A DNA stretch of 64,000 nt from Chloroflexota bacterium (GTDB lineage: Bacteria > Chloroflexota > UBA11872 > VXOZ01), in contig CATQHC010000003.1 of the NCBI GenBank assembly GCA_958295775.1, forward strand, positions 310,001 to 374,000, in the 5' to 3' direction. Positions 2,595-18,817 of this stretch are shown one piece after another. Below the pieces are notes generated by a model. The model had not been told where the DNA came from, searched no databases, and was given only the letters and a program-made list of their open reading frames with translations. Positions within the stretch are counted from its first letter, which is position 1. Each line of letters begins with the position of its first letter. Made by a program: the position numbers and the translations under genes.

Positions 2595-3740
2595 CTACCG
2601 AGGCTGCAAGATGAGATCTACCTCACAGTTGGCCTGCTTAGGTGCTCCGCCGCGGCTGTATGGTTTGAGTTGACGGTCTGGATGCAAGGGGTGCGAAATC
2701 TCAGTAAGGCTCTTCTCTGGGAAGTTGCGCACAAGCGCTTCCAAGGTATTCCGATATGTCAATTCCCGACGATCAGTTCTCACGTAAATTACTGCATCTT
2801 CGGTTAGAATGGGCTTCGACTTGGAGAGAATTTGGTCAATAAGCTGTAGATGGTGGTGCGAGTTGCTGAATTTGCCACCGTATCGGTTGCTGGTTCGTGC
2901 GGTGGGGCGTTCAGGGCCACCCAAGAGCCAAAGTCTTAACCACTGATCGTAATAGTAGTTGGTGACGTTATGGTAGGGTGGCGAGGTGAGCAAGAGTCTC
3001 GCTTTGGCGCGTTTACCTTCTCTGACTTCACGTGCTAGACTGAGCAGCTTTTGGGTGCTGTCTGCCAAGAACACGTTCGCGTTTCCAGTTTGCGGACGAC
3101 CATGGACGTAACGCCATGTAATGCGCTTTCCTAGAAATTCGACTGGGTCAACATCTGGTGGACTCATCCTATTCTTGCGCCACCATGCTACGCAGTAGTC
3201 TGGAGACATTGCAGTGCTCTGGCGCATCTGATTGGATAGAGATTGTCCGATTTTGCCATGCAGCGACACCAGAATTATGGCCACCAAGGTACGATCCGCA
3301 TGCTTCCGTCGCCAGTCCAGGTTTTCACGAACTGCCAGTAGAAATTCTCGCACTCTCGTTGAGTAGCAGGAGTGAAAAAACTCAGGAAGCGCGTTTGCCG
3401 ATTCGCGGTAGCGACCGGCTTCCTTAGCCAAATCTTCCAACCTACGAACCACAGCGGTATACTCCCCCACTTTGAGCTTGGCATTCGCGTACACATACCC
3501 AAGCGGGTTTATTTCAATTCCAGTTCCAGAACGGTCTTGGACAGCAGCACTAAAGATTGCCGTACCCCTACCAGCAAATGGATCAAGAACAGCATCTCCG
3601 GGCTGAGTATATTCTTCTACAACTGCATCAGCGAACGCAGTCGGAAACATCGCGTAGTAAGGACCGATCCCGGCCCATCGGCCCTTAGCACTGCCGTATC
3701 TTTGCCTCGAGGGCATCGGAGGGTTGCCTTGCTGATTCAT
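2595..3740 (-). CDS. DNA methyltransferase (TSPPY, probable N4-cytosine)
   Basis: SAM-dependent DNA methyltransferase of 381 aa. Motif I is DPFAGRGT (residues 53-60) and precedes motif IV, SPPY (253-256, in a TSPPY context). SPPY is typical of N4-cytosine enzymes. The order I then IV differs from the facing beta-class methylase, so the cassette has two unrelated modification enzymes. Its ATG overlaps the stop of the upstream NurA reading frame as ATGA (3737-3740), a sign of translational coupling. It is the last gene of the HerA-NurA-methylase operon. It could modify host DNA to protect it from the HerA-NurA nuclease (inference). Confidence 0.85.
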   Translation of the reverse strand: MNQQGNPPMPSRQRYGSAKGRWAGIGPYYAMFPTAFADAVVEEYTQPGDAVLDPFAGRGTAIFSAAVQDRSGTGIEINPLGYVYANAKLKVGEYTAVVRRLEDLAKEAGRYRESANALPEFFHSCYSTRVREFLLAVRENLDWRRKHADRTLVAIILVSLHGKIGQSLSNQMRQSTAMSPDYCVAWWRKNRMSPPDVDPVEFLGKRITWRYVHGRPQTGNANVFLADSTQKLLSLAREVREGKRAKARLLLTSPPYHNVTNYYYDQWLRLWLLGGPERPTARTSNRYGGKFSNSHHHLQLIDQILSKSKPILTEDAVIYVRTDRRELTYRNTLEALVRNFPEKSLTEISHPLHPDRQLKPYSRGGAPKQANCEVDLILQPR

Positions 3741-4726
3741 TCCTCGCTGAATAGCTCCGTTAGAATCCTAGCGCCAGTTCTAAGCGGGATGGCCGCGTGC
3801 GCGTGTGCACGTACTAGTGGCGCAAAGCCGTCTTGGTAGAGATGTGTGGAAAGCTCATCCATAAGGTCCAAAGCCTCTCCTAGCCTTGGGAAAGCCGCTT
3901 CATCCACACAATGCGGGTCTCTGCCGCTGTCATTCACTATGGGCGTCATGATTACGGAGTGCTGGCCTGCTCTATTCTTATACAAGACTTTGCGTCCGTA
4001 ATAGGTCGCCTCTCCGTAAGGCTTAGCGTCCAGCGGGCGTAACACAATGTGCTTATGAATATAGTCAATATCTGGCGCCAGAGCTGTGCAATTGGGCAGT
4101 CGTTGCCCAGGGCCTTTTTTCTCCATCCAGTCCAACTCTTTCAGGTGGTCCAAGAACTGCCCCGATTTTTCTATCCCCATTAGCAAAATGCCAGGGTCTC
4201 CCTGCTCTTGTGCTTTCTTGTGAAGACGGGCAATTTCCGGCTCTATGTGGTATTTGAGCCATGCCGGCATACCGAATAGAGCCAAAGGGCCATCCATTAT
4301 GAAAGCCGTATCGCGGAAGACACCCAAGCTGTCCGTCCGCTCGAAGTATCTCAAGATGTTTACCAGTGTAAGCTGCTCTATTACCTGTCGGACTGCGGTG
4401 AATGCCTGTTCACTTGGGCCGTTTTCTTCGAATCGCTCATGGGCCCTCAGTACGTCAGTCTCAAAGATAACTTCAGCCTGCGGGCAAATGCAGATACTGG
4501 CGCCTTGCCCTGGACTAATCTTCTTTTCGGTCACTCCAAGGGGACAGTCATCAACAGGGCAATCTATCGAGCCGGCACGATCTTTGGTTATGACTCGCAA
4601 TGTCTCTAACAGTGTTTCATGCTCTGGGTCCAGTCTTGCCTCTAACTCTTTGCTGATGGTCGCCCGAAAGAATCGCTTGGGAGAGTCCTCCGGTTCGCCC
4701 CTCCTTACTACGTTGCGACCAGGCAA
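3737..4726 (-). CDS. NurA-domain nuclease, C-terminal part (frameshifted)
   Basis: This 329-aa frame holds the second half of a NurA-type nuclease. It contains the motif IMDGPLALFG (Asp at residue 145), which in NurA supplies a second metal-binding Asp, and a C-terminal His-rich stretch. The first catalytic motif is in the adjacent frame upstream (4708-5079). The frames overlap by 19 nt and are offset by -1, so one indel or a ribosomal frameshift would join them into about 445 aa. If translated separately, the start would be TTG at 4726. A Cys cluster (C56, C61, C79, C81) suggests a small zinc-binding insertion. The stop overlaps the methyltransferase start (ATGA). Confidence 0.7.
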   Translation of the reverse strand: MPGRNVVRRGEPEDSPKRFFRATISKELEARLDPEHETLLETLRVITKDRAGSIDCPVDDCPLGVTEKKISPGQGASICICPQAEVIFETDVLRAHERFEENGPSEQAFTAVRQVIEQLTLVNILRYFERTDSLGVFRDTAFIMDGPLALFGMPAWLKYHIEPEIARLHKKAQEQGDPGILLMGIEKSGQFLDHLKELDWMEKKGPGQRLPNCTALAPDIDYIHKHIVLRPLDAKPYGEATYYGRKVLYKNRAGQHSVIMTPIVNDSGRDPHCVDEAAFPRLGEALDLMDELSTHLYQDGFAPLVRAHAHAAIPLRTGARILTELFSEE

Positions 4727-5079
4727 TACAGCACTGAGTGTTTCACATTGCCCATTTCCCGCATTTCCCTTGGACTTGGAATGTAGTCGCGTGGGATGTT
4801 GCGTATCGCCTCTAGCTTAATCACAATGGCTGCCAGATTAAGAAGTGCAGCTTCAGCACCGGGGTAGCCATTCTTAACTTGGTGAGTTACCGTCGAACCA
4901 TCAATTGCTATCACGCGCTTTATTCTGCCAGCCCCTCGCTCCAAATCAAGGCTGTCGGGCGGCTCATGGGAAATCTGGTTTTCGCTATACCTAATCGCGC
5001 CCTGAAACTCCTTGACACTAGGGCTTTCTGCCAAACGCCAGAGAGAGTCTCCCCTGGCGAATTCGTTACGGTACGGCAT
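4708..5079 (-). CDS. NurA-domain nuclease, N-terminal part (frameshifted)
   Basis: A 123-aa frame with the NurA signature VIAIDGS (catalytic Asp at residue 60). ATG at 5079 has a GGAG Shine-Dalgarno about 9 nt upstream. It starts 55 nt after the HerA stop. NurA is a 5'-3' exonuclease/endonuclease that works in complex with the HerA hexamer. Here the frame stops at 4708 while the rest of the domain continues in the -1 frame. I found no convincing slippery heptamer in register, so an assembly error or a real inactivating indel are both possible. The pairing with HerA supports the identification. Confidence 0.7.
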   Translation of the reverse strand: MPYRNEFARGDSLWRLAESPSVKEFQGAIRYSENQISHEPPDSLDLERGAGRIKRVIAIDGSTVTHQVKNGYPGAEAALLNLAAIVIKLEAIRNIPRDYIPSPREMREMGNVKHSVLYCLVAT

Positions 5080-5134
5080 TAGGAATCTCCAAGTGACATG
5101 CCCGCTGGTGATTCTAAAGAGGGTACAGGGTTCA

Positions 5135-7312
5135 TTACTCTAATTCTTGCGGTACAGGAGCCGTGAACAAGTCGATTTGCACCGGCAATGTGTAAGGGCT
5201 GGACAATGTGCGAACTCTCAAGAAGCCGGTTTCGTTTACCTTGATAATACTGTCTGTGAAGTCGGCGAAGTCATTGTACTTGTTCAATTGTCGAGTTTCG
5301 TCTGTGTTGTTGAGGTGTGCAATGAACCAGTTCTCACTGTTGGTAAGAATGTTGGGTTGAATTGTAGATGGTTCTTGCGTCGAGTACACCAAGCCGATGT
5401 TGAATTTTGCACCCTCCTTCGCGACCCTCGCCCAAATGTTAGTGGTGTCGGTCTCGCTCCCCTTAGGCAGCAAGGTGTGAGCTTCCTCAACATAGATAAT
5501 CACCGGAGGCGGCTTCTTCATTTCGCCGCTCTCCTTATCGGTTTCCGGATTGACAAAGGCCTTTTGTTGGGAAGCGAATATTCGCCACATGATCCGAGAA
5601 GCAGCCTGTTCGTTCATTTCGGGATCCCCCAACGCCTGGTCAAAGATCACCAGTCGGCCATCACGGATGTGGTCAACGATGTCTTCGGCATAGTCGGTTA
5701 CTTGGTCAAGACCGTGCCACTGCCGAGCTTGCTGAATAACAGCTAAACCACGGGTGTTTTCAAAGATGCGCAGCAGACCCAGGAACCGGTCATCGGACCA
5801 GTTTCTATCTGCTTGATATTCATTGTCAAAACTCTTGAACTCTCTGCTCGCCACCCATTCCGAGAATGCTCTACAGAAGTTTTGTGCCATATCCCAGGGC
5901 ATTTCGTCATTCCCTTTTAGATGTTCGGCATAGGCTTTCATTTCTGATGTGTTCTCCATCACTGTAAGAAGCTTTCTATTGAACAATCCCTTAGTGTTGA
6001 TTCCTGTGGTGGGTCTTTCGAATGCAGCAGCAACCAGTATAGATTTATAGACAAACAGTGCCCGACGGTAACGGATACTCGCTCCAAAGTCGTCGGCGTC
6101 AGGTGGCGCTGTAATATCCACGTTGGTGAAACTCTTAATGTAGCCGCCAGACTCCTCCCGCAGGGCCTCATTTATGATTTGCTTGCCTTGATATAGGCTT
6201 TGCAAAGCTTCATCCAATTCCTGTTTGCCGGGATTCTTGCCAGACGGCACGCCATCACCAAAGAAATTGAACTTTGTGATTTTGCGATTAGGGTCATTTG
6301 GATGGGGGTGCAAGCCGTACGTTACGACGTCACCAGTAGGTGCATCGGGCATATTAGCTATGTTCTTCAGGCATCCCTGGTCTTGCGGGTTCTCATTTGC
6401 GTATTCGCCATTCGGGTCAAAAATCAATTGCCCGACTCTTTGACCACTCTCTCCGGTTCGCAACTGGAAAACGGCACTGGCAATGGTCTTGGTAGTATTG
6501 GACTTGCCGGTCCGTGTCATGCCAAATAGAGCAGTCCGTTGAGCCAAGAGATCCTCAGCCATCAAGCAGACCGGCACGGATTCGGGAGCATTTAGGTCTC
6601 GAATGGAAGCCGCATAACGCAGCTTGCCAATTTGGACGGGTTCAGAACCCATTGATTCCCGCTTCGTATAGTTGACGATTCGTTGCAATGCTGTCCCGGC
6701 AGGCTTGTATACCTTCATGCCTTGACCAGCGTAAAAGTTGTCTATGTCTCCACCGAATTCCATACTCCAGTCTCCAGTTTCAACTTGGAGATTCATTCGG
6801 AATGTGCCCAGTATGCGGCAGTGCGCGCCGGCATAGCGCATCTGGTCTAAGGTGAACTGGTCGGTCTTGCCACCTTCATCCCAATTGTCTGGAGTTTGAG
6901 CCGCTCTTTGCCCGGCTTCGAGGCGAGCACTCTTCATCTCTATATCATTCGGCAGAGGACTCGCCCCCAAAGCACGTAGCAAAATCAGAGAAGCTTGGGC
7001 ATCATTCGGATCCGGCAGTGTGTCTTCCACTTCATCCAACCGTATTCTCGAAGCAAGCAACAGGCAACCGTGAGGGACTCCGCCGACATCCTGTCGCAAC
7101 CTGTCGTGAATTAGCACTTCGGCAGTGTTGTAGTCCATGCTAATGAGATCACCAACGTATCTTTCCAAGTCAATGAAACTAACCAGCCTGCGGGCCGCCT
7201 GGTTGGCCTTACGCTTGGCTTTCTCTTCGGCATGCTCTTTCGTTACATTGCTAAGGGCTGTGTTATCAGCGGTGCCATCGCGTGCACCACTTCTATCCTG
7301 TGCTAGTGTCAC
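5135..7312 (-). CDS. herA: HerA-type hexameric DNA translocase ATPase
   Basis: FtsK/HerA-superfamily ATPase, about 725 aa. Walker A is GMTRTGKSNT (about residues 264-273). Walker B is VIIYVEEAH (about 604-612), with the Glu-Glu-Ala-His typical of HerA. A downstream STQEPS matches the sensor region. The N-terminal region fits the HAS-barrel part of the family. The protein is longer than archaeal HerA (about 500 aa), with extra sequence between the Walker motifs. The start is chosen as GTG at 7312 because AGGAG lies 9 nt upstream; a TTG at 7321 abuts that site. HerA pumps DNA for NurA in end resection, and several bacterial defence systems use HerA with a nuclease or NADase. It is the first gene of the operon. 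Confidence 0.85.
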   Translation of the reverse strand: MTLAQDRSGARDGTADNTALSNVTKEHAEEKAKRKANQAARRLVSFIDLERYVGDLISMDYNTAEVLIHDRLRQDVGGVPHGCLLLASRIRLDEVEDTLPDPNDAQASLILLRALGASPLPNDIEMKSARLEAGQRAAQTPDNWDEGGKTDQFTLDQMRYAGAHCRILGTFRMNLQVETGDWSMEFGGDIDNFYAGQGMKVYKPAGTALQRIVNYTKRESMGSEPVQIGKLRYAASIRDLNAPESVPVCLMAEDLLAQRTALFGMTRTGKSNTTKTIASAVFQLRTGESGQRVGQLIFDPNGEYANENPQDQGCLKNIANMPDAPTGDVVTYGLHPHPNDPNRKITKFNFFGDGVPSGKNPGKQELDEALQSLYQGKQIINEALREESGGYIKSFTNVDITAPPDADDFGASIRYRRALFVYKSILVAAAFERPTTGINTKGLFNRKLLTVMENTSEMKAYAEHLKGNDEMPWDMAQNFCRAFSEWVASREFKSFDNEYQADRNWSDDRFLGLLRIFENTRGLAVIQQARQWHGLDQVTDYAEDIVDHIRDGRLVIFDQALGDPEMNEQAASRIMWRIFASQQKAFVNPETDKESGEMKKPPPVIIYVEEAHTLLPKGSETDTTNIWARVAKEGAKFNIGLVYSTQEPSTIQPNILTNSENWFIAHLNNTDETRQLNKYNDFADFTDSIIKVNETGFLRVRTLSSPYTLPVQIDLFTAPVPQELE

Positions 7313-7452
7313 TACCTGCAACTCCTATTGCCCTTTCCTTTGGGCGGTCAAGAAGTGTTGTGTCATAGATGTCTCACTCACTAAAGGTGATCCTACACAG
7401 CGCACGCAGTTCTCACAATTAGAGGTCAAATTGCGCAGAAAGCTGGCTGATC

Positions 7453-11428: not shown

Positions 11429-12238
11429 TCAGTGGCCGGTCAAGTCCTCTATGAATTGTTTGATTGGGCTGTACACCTCGTGGCTCCAATTCCAGTAGCC
11501 AAGTTTCGCCCCTTCACCGAGCTTCAAACCGGGTTCGGGTCTTGAGGCGAGAAAGGCTTGGACGCTGGCTTTCTTTCGGTTTTGGCCCCGCCAGTTCGGC
11601 ACACTTCTCTTGACACACTCGATGTATTCATCAACACATGGCATAGCCGGATCAGCCTGCACGGCGTCAAGGCATACGTCTTCAAGCATGCCTTCAGACT
11701 CTCCTGGCGGCAGAATGAGGATGCCAATCCTGGGTTTCTCACCAACAACCTGCAACGGACGCTCCGGAGGGTTCAGCTCTGAGGCACTAATTGCAGCATA
11801 TGCGCTCTTGAAAGCTGCCTCCGCAGCGGATTCAGTGCCGGAAGCACTCAATTCAGCGTCGCGGACGATGCCGATTGCCTCAATTGTGGTTCGCGCGCGA
11901 GGCGCGTTCCAAACGGCCCCAAGAAAGCTGTGCAGCTCAGTGACGCCGCCGAAGTTGCTAATTTCCGCGTCGCTGGGGTCAAGCCGTCCCAAGATTTCGT
12001 TCCGAACACGGTCAAAGGCTGCGAGATCCTCCTCGTCGAGTTTGCTTCTCAAGCCCAAACCCTTAATCATGTCAGGCGCATCTTTGTAGACTTTGGAGTG
12101 ACCGCGCCACTCGATTTCTCCTTGCACCTCTACGTTGTTGAAGCCCATGTGATTGAGGAAATGCATGAAGAAGAATTGCGCGTCCGCACCCTCGACGAGG
12201 AGTTGGATCGGCGCTCTTATACCGCTTCTCGGCGGCAC
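11429..12238 (-). CDS. TOPRIM-like DUF3226-type protein, partner of the ATPase
   Basis: 269 aa. The N-terminus reads PIQLLVEG (Glu at residue 16), as in TOPRIM-like nucleases. A central GIVRDAE and a C-terminal GILILPPG...GMLEDV resemble DUF3226 proteins, which usually sit beside AAA ATPases. The start is GTG at 12238, overlapping the ATPase stop as TAGTG, so the two are translationally coupled. Known relatives of this arrangement (OLD nucleases, Gabija GajA, PARIS AriA/AriB, RloA/RloB) act in phage defence. The DUF3226 assignment is by motif reading only; DUF4435 or another TOPRIM branch is an alternative. Confidence 0.6.
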   Translation of the reverse strand: MPPRSGIRAPIQLLVEGADAQFFFMHFLNHMGFNNVEVQGEIEWRGHSKVYKDAPDMIKGLGLRSKLDEEDLAAFDRVRNEILGRLDPSDAEISNFGGVTELHSFLGAVWNAPRARTTIEAIGIVRDAELSASGTESAAEAAFKSAYAAISASELNPPERPLQVVGEKPRIGILILPPGESEGMLEDVCLDAVQADPAMPCVDEYIECVKRSVPNWRGQNRKKASVQAFLASRPEPGLKLGEGAKLGYWNWSHEVYSPIKQFIEDLTGH

Positions 12239-13344
12239 TAGCGTACCTCCAGATTGGTGCGGATTGCGGCGGCAAGTGTCTCCTGATCGTATGTAATCAC
12301 GTGTGTCTCGTCTGCGATACGCTCCAACCGATGCAGCCTGAACGCGTATTCCCGGTCTTCACGAAAGGCCTCATGCGCGGCTTCGATGCATTCAAAGCTA
12401 TGTGTGGTGGCAAATACCTGTGTATTGTAGCGGCGCGCCGCCTCGTCAATTGACGCCCATACTCGGCTAAGTACGGAGTGATGAAATCCGTTTTCGATTT
12501 CATCTATTAAAACCACGCCATCCGGTGCATCGGCAATTGCGAGCAGAGTATTTGTAAGACTTCCCAGACCATCTCCTAGAAGTGAGAGCGGAACCATGCG
12601 GCCGATCCCAATATCACCACGCAGCATCGGAGTACCTGCTACTACCCCCACTCGCACTCGCTTCAGTCGAGGTTCGATGATTCTCAGTGTCTCAAGCAAC
12701 TCACTCGGTTCTCGCTCACTCTCTAAGCGCGTGTACTTTGTGGCAGCGTTCTGCAATCCTCTCGACTTGTTTCCTCCAAGGTATGATCCTCTGAACGGAA
12801 GTTCCGGTCTGATAGGTGGATCGGAGGCTACACGCACGGTAAGTGCTCCATCGCTTGCAGCTTCAATGACCATGGCAGATTCTACTACCGACCCATCTGG
12901 CTTGGAGTGCACAAGCTTGAGAAAGTGACCATAGATCGGTAACGATTCTAGTTCACCGGTGCCTTCATCCGCTCTTCCATCACTAACCGAAAAGTGAGTG
13001 GTGCTCACGCGGTCAATTGAAACCTGCGCAACATGCTCTCGGCCACAATGAATCCCCCTAATTTCTATGACGTCAGAAGAGTTAAGATTGTGAAAGAGCG
13101 AATTCCAGAGCAGTTCGGTAAGTTGCGAGAGTTCTCCCAAGTAGTTTCCAGCTAGACCACGATAATTTCCAAGTTGGACAACCAACTCGACATTTCCCAT
13201 GCCGATGAGCATGTAGATTGCTTCCAGCAGTGCGGTCTTGCCGGCGCTATTCAACCCTGCAATCAAGTTGACCCGATTCAGGGAGTCATCAATCGAAAGC
13301 GATTCGAAACAGCGAAAATTGCGAATGGAAAGCGACGTGAACAT
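12238..13344 (-). CDS. AAA ATPase, OLD/AAA_15-AAA_21 type
   Basis: SMC-like ABC-type ATPase of 368 aa. It opens with the family start SLSIRNFRCFESL. Walker A is GLNSAGKT (30-37), Walker B is VVLIDEIEN (277-285), and an H-loop ATTHS occurs near 313-317. There is no long coiled coil, as in AAA_15/AAA_21 proteins of anti-phage pairs. ATG at 13344 has GAGGAG 8 nt upstream, and a CATAAT -10-like box lies near 13375-13380. With the overlapping downstream TOPRIM-like gene it forms a two-gene operon. Base composition is lower in GC than the neighbours, similar to the HerA cassette. Confidence 0.85.
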   Translation of the reverse strand: MFTSLSIRNFRCFESLSIDDSLNRVNLIAGLNSAGKTALLEAIYMLIGMGNVELVVQLGNYRGLAGNYLGELSQLTELLWNSLFHNLNSSDVIEIRGIHCGREHVAQVSIDRVSTTHFSVSDGRADEGTGELESLPIYGHFLKLVHSKPDGSVVESAMVIEAASDGALTVRVASDPPIRPELPFRGSYLGGNKSRGLQNAATKYTRLESEREPSELLETLRIIEPRLKRVRVGVVAGTPMLRGDIGIGRMVPLSLLGDGLGSLTNTLLAIADAPDGVVLIDEIENGFHHSVLSRVWASIDEAARRYNTQVFATTHSFECIEAAHEAFREDREYAFRLHRLERIADETHVITYDQETLAAAIRTNLEVR

Positions 13345-13453: not shown

Positions 13454-14731
13454 CTATCTGGACTTCATCAGTTTTTCCAAGAGCGCCACGCTCGCGTCCA
13501 CCACACGTCCGGCGCTTTCTGGCGTCACTGCGGCGGGGAGACTGTAATGAAAGTGGGCGGTCTCCACCTCGTAGCCGCCCTCAGGGTAAGCGGCCGCAGT
13601 GGGAATGTACCCGATGTCGCCGTTCGTGTAGCCCAAATACATGGTGTGGTCGAACGGCGAGCGTTCCTGCACGGCTTGCGCGAGCTCGATGAAAACTTCA
13701 CCGGCGCCGCCGACTAAGGCCACCTCCCCGATGCGGAGCGCTTGCACCTCGAATTCCACCTGATTCTCGCCAACGAGCGGTGGTGTCCAGTAACGGAGAG
13801 CGGGTGTGCGCGTTCGGAACGTGGGCGGCGGCTCACCCGGGGCCTGCAGATCGAGCGCCAACGTCTCGTGCGCGGCCCCCAGCACGGGTGCGAGTGGCGC
13901 GGCTTCCCCAAAGGCGGAGTGCAGGCCGCTGAGCGAGTAGACTTTCAATGCCTCCGCACCGAGGGCGCTGCCCACGCCCCAAAGACGCTCCTGCATGTCG
14001 ATCTCGGCACGCTGGCCGATGGGGTTGATATTACCGCACGCGCCCTGCAAGAAGAGCATGGTCGCCCCGCTCGCGGCTTCGAAAAGGCCCCGCGCTACGC
14101 CCACAAAGTCGGCGGACACGGCATGGCTTGGTGGAAAGAGCACCACGGGATGGCACGCGTAATGCACGAGCGCAGCCAACGGCTCGCCCTCATCCGTGTC
14201 CACACGCAGCAATTGCACAGCGGTGTCCAGAGCCCCACGGGCATTCTCGCCAAGCACCATGCCGCCGGACGAGCGCATTTCGCGGCGATTGACGTTCACA
14301 GCGACACTGCCCGCGCCGTGGGTTACGCGACACGCCTCCAGATTGCTCTGCGCCAATTCAACCGAACCGGCAATAGCGTGTACGAGGGTCGTGGAGTACG
14401 CCCGCTCGTGGTCGGACATGTCGTCATGGATGCTCGTGAACGGGCCGGAGTGCGTATGCGATGTGTTGATGAGGACGTTCGACCCCGGAATGCCGGTGCG
14501 CTCGGCAATCAGCGCGCGCAGGGCAGCGACCTGCTGCGACGGCAGCCCGCAAACGTCGCAGCTAACGATTGCGATTGCGGTCTCGCCGGTGGCGAGCACG
14601 AGAGAAGTGGCATAGAGGTCGTCTAGGATAGCGTCGCAGCCGTGTTCACGATTCCCAAACCCACACAGCCAGGTACCTAAGGGCGGCGTGATGGTTGCTC
14701 GCCCAACTCCGGCCTGCAGTACGTCTGCCAT
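13454..14731 (-). CDS. Neutral/alkaline ceramidase-like hydrolase
   Basis: About 425 aa. It opens with AGVGRATITPPLG and carries the zinc-type motif SHTHSGP (91-97), a later YACHPVV, and GACGNINP, all typical of the neutral ceramidase N-terminal family. Family members hydrolyse N-acyl bonds; many bacterial ones are uncharacterised. It is shorter than true ceramidases (about 650 aa) and lacks a signal peptide with the chosen ATG at 14731 (AAAGGGA upstream). The longer frame to 14950 has no good start signals. Substrate uncertain. Confidence 0.75.
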   Translation of the reverse strand: MADVLQAGVGRATITPPLGTWLCGFGNREHGCDAILDDLYATSLVLATGETAIAIVSCDVCGLPSQQVAALRALIAERTGIPGSNVLINTSHTHSGPFTSIHDDMSDHERAYSTTLVHAIAGSVELAQSNLEACRVTHGAGSVAVNVNRREMRSSGGMVLGENARGALDTAVQLLRVDTDEGEPLAALVHYACHPVVLFPPSHAVSADFVGVARGLFEAASGATMLFLQGACGNINPIGQRAEIDMQERLWGVGSALGAEALKVYSLSGLHSAFGEAAPLAPVLGAAHETLALDLQAPGEPPPTFRTRTPALRYWTPPLVGENQVEFEVQALRIGEVALVGGAGEVFIELAQAVQERSPFDHTMYLGYTNGDIGYIPTAAAYPEGGYEVETAHFHYSLPAAVTPESAGRVVDASVALLEKLMKSR

Positions 14732-15160
14732 TGGAGCATCCCTTTCTCGGCAAACACGGCCGCCCTGCTCCCAGCAACCCTTCAGCCCAACACCTATGCC
14801 TCTACCGCAGCCGCTTCGCCTCTCGCTGCACTTGAGCCGATTGTGTGGCTCATTATAGCGAAGGTCACACGGTTCTGCCGCGCTTTCCCCAGCAAACTGC
14901 CCGCTCAAGGCGAGTCGTTCGCGCCGCAGAGAGTGCAAGATCTGCAGCAATCGCGGCGGAGTTACGCCTACAGGGGTTGTTACCTTTCTCGCCTAGAGAG
15001 CGGCCCCGGTCTGCGGTCGGCGAACACGGCACGGCGATGGTCAGCCTGCCGCAGTTCCGCGCGGATGAAGTGAAACGCGGCAGACGCCATGTCCAGCGCC
15101 TGCCGCATGCTCGATGCTTCTCTTTGATTATGCCGGCGGAGTATCACGCCGTACTTGGCA
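14732..15160. other. Intergenic region, no clear gene
   Basis: About 430 bp between two minus-strand genes. A minus-strand frame from about 15106 to 14980 could encode 42 aa but has no recognisable motif and is probably spurious. No strong hairpin or promoter pair was identified. Confidence 0.5.
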
Positions 15161-17209
15161 CTACTCCTTGGCTTCCTCGTACCAGCCTGAGCCAAAGTAG
15201 AGCCCGTCGTGCCGCACAAGCCACGTGTGCTTCAGGGTCTCTTGGTTTGTCTCCAAATTCACGAAGACGTAGTCCACCCACTTTCCTTCCTCGGTCGCCG
15301 TGAGGAATTCAGCGCCGTAGTCATAGCCTCGTGTATCGATGCGCTGTTCCCTAGTGCGGCCGATGTGTTCCGGATTCGGATGCGCGATGGTGACCTGGTT
15401 CTCATCCAGGACGAAGACATACCACTGGCCCTGCACACTCTGCTCGGAGCTGAAATACTCTAGGGCAACTTCCCGCCCCTGCGCATCGTAACGCTGGATG
15501 GCACGGTGCACGAAGGATTGGGTATACGAGGCATCGTCTTCCGCTTCGGCGCGTTCGTACCAGCCGGAGGCGAAGATCAGCCCATCGTGCTTCACCGCCC
15601 AGGCGTGCTTCTGCTCCTCATAACCGGTTGCCGGATTCAGGAAGTAGTAGTCGACCCAAACACCTTCCTCGGTGGCTGCGATGAGCTCCTCACCATAGGC
15701 TTTGCCGCGCACGTCAACGCGCGTCGTGGGCGAGGTGCCGCGGAGTTCAGGCCGCGTGGGCTGGACAACCGTGTTCTCATTCTCATCGATGATGAAAACG
15801 TACCAATCGTCGTCCACACTCTCCGGCGTGTTGTAGTAAGCAAACGTAGCCTCACGTCCAACGGCATCGTACAGTCGTATTGCCTGTGCGACAAACTCCT
15901 GAGTGAATGCCGCCGGATCAGACTTCGAGACACCATCTTCGTACCAGCCGGAGCCGAAAACCAATCCGTCATAGCGGATTACCCACGTGTGTTTCGACTG
16001 GAATGCCCCAGTAGAAGGATTGACGTACGTATAGTCCGTCCACGCGCCCTCTGTAGTAGCCGCCCCTGCTACCTGCGCTCCTGCCGGATAGCCACCAGGC
16101 CCAAGAATCTCCTCTGGGGGTAGCCCAACGTTCGCCGGAACGGCGGCATGCGCGATCATGATGTCATTCTCGTCAGCGATGAAGACGTACCACGCTCCAT
16201 CGATGCTCTCCGGCGTATTGTAGTACGCTACGGTGTCTTCCAGCCCGATGGCGTCATAGAGCCGTATCGCCTGCGCCACGAACGCTTGCGTGTACGCCGC
16301 CGGATCTGACTTGGACGCCCCCTCTTCATACCAGCCGGAGGCGAAGATCAGTCCGTCATAGCGCAGCACCCAGGTATGCTTCGACTCGAATGCTTGCGTG
16401 GCCGGGTTGATGTACGTGTAGTCCGTCCAGGCGCCCTCCTCGGTGGCCGCCGCCGCTACTTGGGCTCCCGTGGGATAGCCGCCGGGACCGAGAATGTCCA
16501 CAAGGGGTTGCCCCACGTTCTCGGGAACCGCGGCATGGGCGAGCATGACGTCGTTCTCGTCAGTGATGAAGACGTACCACGCGCCGTCCACGCTCGCCGC
16601 CGAGTTGTAGTACGCGATGGTGGCGTCGCGCCCCTCGGCGCGGTAGAATTCCAACGCCTGTTCGACAAACGCCTGCGTGTAGGCGGCGGGGTCAGACTTG
16701 TCAGGCAGCCCGGCGTGCCCTTCAGTAATAACCTCGTACCAGCCGGAGCCAAAGATTAGCCCACCGTACCTGACGACCCAGGAATGCTTCGCTTGGAGTT
16801 CCCCGTTTGCCGGATTGCGGTGCAGGTAATCTACCCAATCGCCTACCTCTGTCGCCGCGGCCAGAGCCGCGCCGTGATTGAAGCCGGTGATGTCCACCCG
16901 GTCATTGACGTCCGTGCCCAGGCGGCCCGGTATGGTGGGGTGGGCAATGAAGATGTCGTCCTCGTCGATGATGAAGACGTACCACTCGCCGGCCACGCTC
17001 TCCGCTGAGTTGTAGAATGCAACGGTCGCCTCACGTCCGTTGGCTTCATAGTGGTCTATGGCTTTTGAAACTACGTACTGCGTATATTCCGCAGGCGCAG
17101 TTGCGGGATCGGGCAGCGGCTGTATCACCTGCACACTGCACGAGGCAGCGACCATGAGCGCCGCTGTCGCTACGAGAACCGTAATACCACGTTGTATCCG
17201 GCTAATCAC
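15161..17209 (-). CDS. Lipoprotein with five tandem Cache-like repeats
   Basis: 682 aa with a lipoprotein signal: a basic N-terminus, a hydrophobic stretch and lipobox MVAASC (Cys 24). The rest is five near-identical modules of about 119 aa at residues 41-159, 176-294, 306-424, 434-552 and 561-679. Each runs YTQ..V..AI..Y, then YN..ES..G.WYVFI.DE, then HP/HA, then ATEEG.W.DY...NP, and ends KH.W..R.DGL.F.SGWYE. This is the pattern of single-Cache (sCache_2-like) ligand-binding domains, normally found once in chemoreceptors and kinases. No signalling domain follows, so the protein is probably a surface-anchored multivalent sensor or binder (inference). GTG at 17209 follows GAGGAGG. Confidence 0.8.
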   Translation of the reverse strand: MISRIQRGITVLVATAALMVAASCSVQVIQPLPDPATAPAEYTQYVVSKAIDHYEANGREATVAFYNSAESVAGEWYVFIIDEDDIFIAHPTIPGRLGTDVNDRVDITGFNHGAALAAATEVGDWVDYLHRNPANGELQAKHSWVVRYGGLIFGSGWYEVITEGHAGLPDKSDPAAYTQAFVEQALEFYRAEGRDATIAYYNSAASVDGAWYVFITDENDVMLAHAAVPENVGQPLVDILGPGGYPTGAQVAAAATEEGAWTDYTYINPATQAFESKHTWVLRYDGLIFASGWYEEGASKSDPAAYTQAFVAQAIRLYDAIGLEDTVAYYNTPESIDGAWYVFIADENDIMIAHAAVPANVGLPPEEILGPGGYPAGAQVAGAATTEGAWTDYTYVNPSTGAFQSKHTWVIRYDGLVFGSGWYEDGVSKSDPAAFTQEFVAQAIRLYDAVGREATFAYYNTPESVDDDWYVFIIDENENTVVQPTRPELRGTSPTTRVDVRGKAYGEELIAATEEGVWVDYYFLNPATGYEEQKHAWAVKHDGLIFASGWYERAEAEDDASYTQSFVHRAIQRYDAQGREVALEYFSSEQSVQGQWYVFVLDENQVTIAHPNPEHIGRTREQRIDTRGYDYGAEFLTATEEGKWVDYVFVNLETNQETLKHTWLVRHDGLYFGSGWYEEAKE

Positions 17210-17602
17210 CGCAGGCCTCCTCTTTGAGATGCTGAATTCTTTTCACTTGGTGCTCACTTCTTCGTTTATCGAACTGCCTTAATTATACCGAGCCGCCAAG
17301 CAAGTTTTGTCTGAATACCGCCTGTTGCCACGGGATTCTCCGAGAATGCCACCAGAGAGGCACATCCGAGAGGCGTACAGGGAGGGACTCCCGATATGCC
17401 CGCTAGCTAACGGAGTGAATGGAGCCGCCTGGCAGCGGTTTATTGGAGCAACGCCATTACCTTGCGAGAGGTCGTCCGGCACTTGCGGCCGCACGCGAAG
17501 GATCCTCAAGCCAGTAGTTGAAATGCCGTCGCATACTTTACCAGGAATTCCTTGACGGCAATGCACCTTGCACCCTCTTCGGACATTTGATATGGCTCCG
17601 AC
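17210..17602. other. Intergenic region with -10-like box
   Basis: About 390 bp between the PhyH gene and the Cache lipoprotein. A perfect minus-strand TATAAT (17282-17287 as ATTATA on the plus strand) lies about 75 bp upstream of the lipoprotein start; no clear -35 could be matched. No coding sequence is supported. Confidence 0.5.
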
Positions 17603-18817
17603 CTAGCTGCTCCAACCGGCAATGAACGACTCGGCGTCTACGCCGGCCGGGAGCTCGTTGAAAAAGTAGTGCATGGGCCGCCCCTGAAATGCCGGCTCGA
17701 ACTTCTCCTCGTCGCTCTGGAGCGCGGCATCCATATACTTGAACCGGCTCCACAGAGTTGCAGCTTCCGCATCGGTGAAGCGTTTGGTGAAGTCCGGTCC
17801 CCAATTCAAGGTAATGGGGTGTTCTCCGTGCACCCAGCGATGGAGATCGTCCGTCGGGCCGCAATCAGCGTTGTTCAGAATGTGCATCTGCAACGCCACC
17901 TTGGACAAGTAAATCGTGAGGGTGGTCCTGCCGTGCGGGCCTGCGCCGGGCTGCAATTTTTCCAAAGCGGCGCGATAGGCGGCCTCATCCTTTGTGATAA
18001 CGGCACGCAGCGCAGCCTCAGTTGCATTTTTCATGTCCTCGCCGCGGACAACGAAGGACTCGAACCTCCCGCGGACCCAGGGCGCGACGTTCTCCAAGAA
18101 ACCCAGTTCCTGGTACGTTCCATAGATGGCGTGGCCGCCGTGGAGCGTGCGCCGCTGCTTGGTGGTGTAATTACTGCCGGTATGGTTGAGATAGTTGATG
18201 TACACCACGCCATCCCCAGCGTTCAATTCCACCGGAATGCCTCCGGTGACCGGCGCGGCGCGGTCCTTGAGCAATTCAGCGTTTTCCTGCTGAGTATTAC
18301 GCCGGCGATGGCTGCCGGGAATCACCCATAACACGCTGTCGTCATACAAGGGCACGTTCCACTGCGTGTACCTGGGGCCGTTTTCCATTAAGTCCGCAGT
18401 CAAGGCATCCAGCGGTGCCATGTCCACCGGATGAATGTCCCGGTGCCAGCCTGTGCCGCCCGGCCAGTCGCGGATCGGATTGCACATCATCATCATTTCG
18501 GTAATGCAAGGCTGCGGTTCACAGAGGAGCTGACTGACGATTTCCAGTGTCTCGTCGGCGACCCAAAAATCCTCCACCACATTGGCCGTTGCTTTGTCGA
18601 TCAGTCCCGGACGCATCATCATGACGCGGGGCTGACGGGCCTTATCGTATTCGCCGCCGGGTGGGTCGTCCGGCCCGCGCTCTCGTGCCCAGTTCACCTT
18701 CTGCCGTTCCAACATAGTCTCGCAGCTCTTCCGCATGGACTCCAGCCGTTCCGGCGGAATGAAATTGCGGAAGATCAAATACCCTTGGTCCATGAACTGG
18801 TCTCGGTCTACCTTCAC
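17603..18817 (-). CDS. Phytanoyl-CoA dioxygenase (PhyH) family protein
   Basis: Fe(II)/2-oxoglutarate-dependent dioxygenase of 404 aa. It begins with the PhyH pattern (QFMDQGYLIFRNFI). The iron motif H-x-D is in GWHRDIH, and a distal HGGHAIYG supplies the third His. It would hydroxylate a small molecule or lipid-CoA using 2-oxoglutarate. GTG at 18817 has TAAGGAG 6 nt upstream. Such proteins are abundant in sponge- and marine-associated bacteria with unknown substrates. Confidence 0.85.
   Translation of the reverse strand: MKVDRDQFMDQGYLIFRNFIPPERLESMRKSCETMLERQKVNWARERGPDDPPGGEYDKARQPRVMMMRPGLIDKATANVVEDFWVADETLEIVSQLLCEPQPCITEMMMMCNPIRDWPGGTGWHRDIHPVDMAPLDALTADLMENGPRYTQWNVPLYDDSVLWVIPGSHRRRNTQQENAELLKDRAAPVTGGIPVELNAGDGVVYINYLNHTGSNYTTKQRRTLHGGHAIYGTYQELGFLENVAPWVRGRFESFVVRGEDMKNATEAALRAVITKDEAAYRAALEKLQPGAGPHGRTTLTIYLSKVALQMHILNNADCGPTDDLHRWVHGEHPITLNWGPDFTKRFTDAEAATLWSRFKYMDAALQSDEEKFEPAFQGRPMHYFFNELPAGVDAESFIAGWSS

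Follow-up and report, generated by a model that had tools for sequence, protein, structure and literature searches.

Among the extracellular sensors of prokaryotes, Cache domains make up the largest superfamily, and they are seen as the input half of transmembrane receptors. What, then, does a protein do that carries five of them in series behind a predicted lipid anchor, with no output domain? The question is raised by a gene in a 64,000-nt stretch of DNA from a Chloroflexota bacterium (hereafter, the window), whose relevant features are as follows.

15161..17209, minus strand: coding sequence, 682 aa, five-module sCache_2 lipoprotein (open reading frame and Pfam)
17216..17223, minus strand: Shine-Dalgarno sequence AGAGGAGG, 6 nt ahead of the GTG start (read from the sequence)
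17138..17209, minus strand: signal peptide with lipobox (residues 1–23) and predicted acylated Cys24 (PROSITE-type pattern)
16733..17086, minus strand: module 1 (type A), residues 42–159 (module alignment and module tree)
16325..16681, minus strand: module 2 (type B), residues 177–295 (module alignment and module tree)
15938..16294, minus strand: module 3 (type B'), residues 306–424 (module alignment and module tree)
15554..15907, minus strand: module 4 (type C), residues 435–552, with the pocket His replaced by Gln
15176..15526, minus strand: module 5 (type D), residues 562–678, used for the single-module model (pLDDT 95.9)
17603..18817, minus strand: PhyH family (phytanoyl-CoA dioxygenase-like), conserved upstream neighbour, context only
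13454..14734, minus strand: neutral/alkaline ceramidase-like, conserved downstream neighbour, context only

The open reading frame starts with a GTG codon at position 17209 of the minus strand, and the N-terminus of the deduced product, MISRIQRGITVLVATAALMVAASC, contains a signal peptide with a PROSITE-type lipobox (ATAALMVAASC, ending in Cys24) and basic residues within its first seven positions (MISRIQR). This combination is that of a bacterial lipoprotein, and acylation is predicted from it. The lipobox is kept in five congeners, in agreement with the lipid anchor proposed in an earlier, sequence-only reading of this DNA. No sigma-70 promoter-like or terminator-like sites were found around the gene, in scans that are weak for such sites.

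The modules are 117–119 aa long and separated by linkers of 9–17 residues. They had been described as nearly identical, which overstates their likeness: identity between module pairs is only 47–53 % for amino acids and 56–64 % for DNA, except for modules 2 and 3 (73 % and 76 %, respectively). These two are indeed the closest pair, as had been noticed, but their supposed recent duplication is rejected, because 53 % of their synonymous sites differ and types B and B' both occur in two other species (loci L049 and L006); the split is old. The repeat number might also have been an assembly artefact. The longest exact direct repeat within the gene is 23 nt, so collapse or expansion during assembly is no concern; moreover, the contig is 375 kb long, with the gene well away from its ends, and independently assembled genomes of five other species contain orthologous modules, which excludes this explanation.

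Across six congeneric species the number of modules is 3, 4, 4, 4, 4 and 5, that is, copy number varies between species. In the module tree, the order of types is A-B-B'-C-D in the window, A-B-C-D in L010 and L005, B-B'-C-D in L049 and L006, and B-C-D in L007. Orthologous modules are 84–92 % identical between species for types C and D and 67–94 % for the B types, different types being around 50 % identical. Values of dN/dS between orthologous modules range from 0.02 to 0.28, and the modules are under purifying selection. Divergence is not even along the gene: in comparison with L010, 19 of 122 fourfold sites differ in modules A and B of the window, against 52 of 99 in C and D (Fisher p 8e-9) and 63 of 159 in the upstream PhyH gene, and sliding windows confine the drop in divergence roughly to residues 80–260. 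The window copy is thus a mosaic, and the simplest explanation of its five-module form is an origin, or a re-homogenisation, through recombination with a relative of L010, in either direction.

Are the modules genuine Cache domains? The protein scored 129.5 bits (E 1.3e-37) with Pfam sCache_2 (PF17200), whose gathering cut-off is 25, in five stretches that cover the modules, and dCache_2 matched it too (105 bits); Pfam identified in it no domain other than Cache, and no known carbohydrate- or protein-binding fold or adhesive domain. An AlphaFold2 model of module 5, built with 31 aligned family modules, reached a mean pLDDT of 95.9 and a pTM of 0.89 and displays the Cache fold, with an N-terminal helix and an antiparallel sheet with flanking helices. 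Foldseek related this model to TlpB (E 2.7e-7) and also to other sCache_2 chemoreceptor domains. With VIA-align, the top matches were 4k08 (Z 15.6), 2qhk (15.2) and 5g4y (15.2), with an rmsd of 1.9–2.0 and 115 of 117 residues aligned, followed by TlpB (12.6–12.8) and by dCache domains (below 12). The module therefore has the same fold, over its full length, as the domains of PscD (5g4y), Adeh_3718 (4k08), a Vibrio parahaemolyticus protein (4exo) and TlpB (3ub6), with Z values of 12.6–15.6; the bound ligand is acetate in 4k08 and propionate in 5g4y. The full-length model (mean pLDDT 82, pTM 0.57) repeats one series of secondary structures five times, the relative placement of modules being unreliable at that pTM. 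These results bear out the earlier assignment of five tandem Cache domains, and place them closest to carboxylate-binding chemoreceptor domains.

In PscD, the carboxylate of propionate is held by Tyr90, His103, Tyr143 and Lys156, between Trp92 and Trp145 (PMC5062169). A profile alignment to 5g4y places Tyr36, His49, Tyr86 and Lys99 of the module at the four contact positions, which are conserved in 147, 138, 149 and 149 of 154 family modules, respectively; small-ligand contacts are among the most conserved positions of the family. The five window modules contain all four contacts, with the sole exception of the His to Gln change in module 4, and among the type-C modules of six species in the genus, four have Gln or Asn at this position and two have His. 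Phe takes the place of Trp92 in each of the five window modules and in 129 of the 154 family modules, and the position of Trp145 is occupied by His, Tyr or Phe in the window and usually by Phe, Trp or Tyr across the family. Identity with PscD, McpP and Adeh_3718 over seven pocket residues, including both Trp, does not hold. The modules thus share with PscD and Adeh_3718 the carboxylate-contact set, and we do not claim the exact C2/C3 specificity of a PscD-like group. Carboxylate binding by the modules is likely, judging from these residues; a conserved carboxylate site is typical of sCache_2 domains generally and does not fix the ligand.

The chain terminates four residues past module 5, and the window protein contains no cytoplasmic output domain (MCP, histidine kinase or GGDEF). 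Similarly, none of around 90 distinct related open reading frames, with one to six modules, has a C-terminal tail longer than 30 aa, bar one broken fragment, so the lack of output noticed previously extends to the whole set. These relatives, single-module homologues among them, are anchored mostly by a lipobox and otherwise by an N-terminal hydrophobic helix, with a collagen-like stalk in L013. The window's genome had no match to the MCP signalling domain or to dCache_1, and no TRAP-type DctP binding proteins; it has seven HisKA kinase matches. Within it, only this gene exceeds the Pfam cut-off for sCache_2, and a family profile adds a second Cache gene, L059, coding for a single-module lipoprotein. 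L059 (about 72113–72493 of contig C3, around 211 aa) is conserved in the genus. In a survey of the class, modules occurred in 29 of 41 genomes, with MCPs in 0 of these 29 carriers; the only two genomes with MCPs both lack modules. In a sample of the phylum, 32 of 400 genomes carried modules.

The gene adjoins the PhyH-family and ceramidase-like genes in those congeners whose flanks were compared. These neighbours are catabolic enzymes, and no transporter, kinase or secretion gene that could be an operon partner neighbours it on either side in the window; likewise, the syntenic loci of congeners show no conserved gene for a kinase or a transporter. Downstream of the Cache gene, L005, L007 and L010 contain a tandem duplication both of the xylose-isomerase-like TIM barrel gene and of part of the ceramidase-like gene. 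Positions 11429–13344 of the window (minus strand) contain a candidate anti-phage pair, an AbiLi/PDC-M38A-like AAA ATPase and a DUF3226 (PDC-M38B-like) partner, present in the syntenic block of the window and L007 and absent from L005, L006 and L010. Type II methyltransferase-like and HerA-like ATPase genes at 2595–7321 (minus strand) may form part of another defence island.

What remains is the function of such an array. Because the carboxylate-binding residues of sCache_2 sensors are kept, each domain probably binds a small carboxylate, such as acetate, propionate, pyruvate, lactate or similar, and the exported lipoprotein would hang five of these domains off the outer face of the membrane. 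Since it has no transmembrane output, the protein would most likely be a multivalent surface binder that captures or concentrates small acids in sponge tissue and then presents them to a separate partner (a transporter or a receptor), its capacity being set by the number of modules and its ligand range by their types. We give even chances to this full reading, in which a non-chemotactic symbiont of a sponge-associated genus captures small carboxylates and hands them over. Against a hand-over to a transporter speak the absence of DctP from the genome and the neighbouring genes, which code for catabolic enzymes. A multivalent surface binder of small ligands is nevertheless the best fit to the contact residues, the purifying selection, the multiplied domains, the anchor and the missing output. 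The ligand trap suggested in the sequence-only reading thus gains from the conserved pocket, ligand binding itself being an inference from sequence; the adhesin suggested beside it found no specific support here.

Known systems differ from this arrangement in several respects. Lipid-anchored, extracytoplasmic binders of small ligands without an output of their own exist among the solute-binding lipoproteins of ABC and TRAP transporters. The analogy is functional only, because these have a different fold and normally one binding domain and a transporter operon, which is missing here. The sCache_2 chemoreceptors are transmembrane proteins with one domain and MCP output, unlike the three to six serial domains found here with a lipid or helix anchor and no output. 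Duplication of sCache_2 also gave rise to dCache_2 (PMC4822843), but dCache_2 is one composite domain that normally precedes an output, whereas here separate, complete sCache domains, up to six, are joined by linkers of 9–17 aa. A recurrent family with multiplied, output-detached Cache domains points to a possible second role of the superfamily as surface binder.

Alternatively, the protein could be a co-receptor, binding ligand and then contacting the extracellular region of another protein (a histidine kinase or a transporter) that carries the output. The intact ligand-contact residues fit this possibility as well, as do the seven HisKA matches in a genome without dCache_1. However, no gene of either type sits beside it in the window or recurs in the syntenic loci; each module begins with a helix of 15 residues and short linkers join the modules, a long N-terminal helix like that described for Cache sensors (PMC5062169) being missing; and a variable number of modules is hard to square with one defined signalling interface. 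We therefore regard a co-receptor as rather doubtful.

A role as surface adhesin or in host recognition, with the repeated modules binding macromolecules of the sponge or its matrix, we consider unlikely. The multi-domain, variable-copy, lipid-anchored layout is adhesin-like, and two relatives have additional elements of this kind: L013 (5518–7611), from Dehalococcoidia, has its stalk of collagen-like repeats between the N-terminus and four Cache modules, and L040, from Binatota, a weak match to the bacterial-Ig domain Big_7, just below the Pfam cut-off, between its two Cache modules. Cache Pfams are also enriched in sponge Thaumarchaeota and were proposed as host-recognition candidates at the host interface (PMC7848895). 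We found no description of tandem or lipoprotein Cache arrays in the literature, this enrichment being the nearest; the likeness to our case is in the enrichment in sponge symbionts, since the relevant passages deal with Pfam enrichment only and not with a tandem lipoprotein architecture. Against adhesion, the contacts for a small ligand are among the most conserved positions, and Pfam detected no macromolecule-binding fold in the window protein. Finally, a functionless chemoreceptor ectodomain left after loss of its MCP part, which might be suspected because sCache_2 occurs mostly in MCPs (1534 of 2243; PMC4822843) and the carriers in the class have none, is very improbable, being refuted for practical purposes by the purifying selection and further opposed by the conserved pocket, the conserved order of module types and the expansion to three to six modules in several lineages.

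The surface binder proposed above can be set in its host context. A scan of 84,980 species genomes, sensitive to close relatives only and not implying absence elsewhere, identified 43 loci, all in metagenome-assembled genomes from several classes of Chloroflexota, from Poribacteria and from Binatota. Sponge origin was read from the bin names for three sets of bins, the remaining loci being untraced; two MPML/MPNN bins are known as symbionts of Aplysina aerophoba. Ten of the 43 loci are in genomes whose 'jk18' names carry the prefix of bins from Caribbean Ircinia sponges (PMC9531527), and five more have RHO, COS or APA names, prefixes that we infer to correspond to the sponge species of PMC8163846. 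For the window bacterium itself, a life as sponge symbiont is suggested by its congeners L006 (jk18x7) and L007 (RHO3). Tentatively, sponge bacteria of at least three phyla may share output-less Cache arrays at their surface that replace chemoreceptors and let a non-motile symbiont read or harvest small acids of the host, with a repertoire tuned by gain, loss and exchange of modules between species through recombination, a wider scenario that we regard as possible, if less probable than its opposite. The sponge setting makes the protein a concrete candidate, open to test, for the way in which dominant, uncultured symbionts interact with their host's dissolved organic matter.

A quick tree across these groups places most modules from Caldilineaceae, Poribacteria and the window genus by lineage, suggesting more than one tandem expansion. 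A recent acquisition by Poribacteria from Chloroflexota is unsupported, because in this quick tree the modules from Poribacteria make up one side of a branch with an SH-aLRT of 97. Two congeners (G005 and G001) contain a divergent Cache protein of three to four modules (L056 and L065, respectively), with a frame that appears split in two in G005, and its middle modules group with those from Poribacteria and Binatota.
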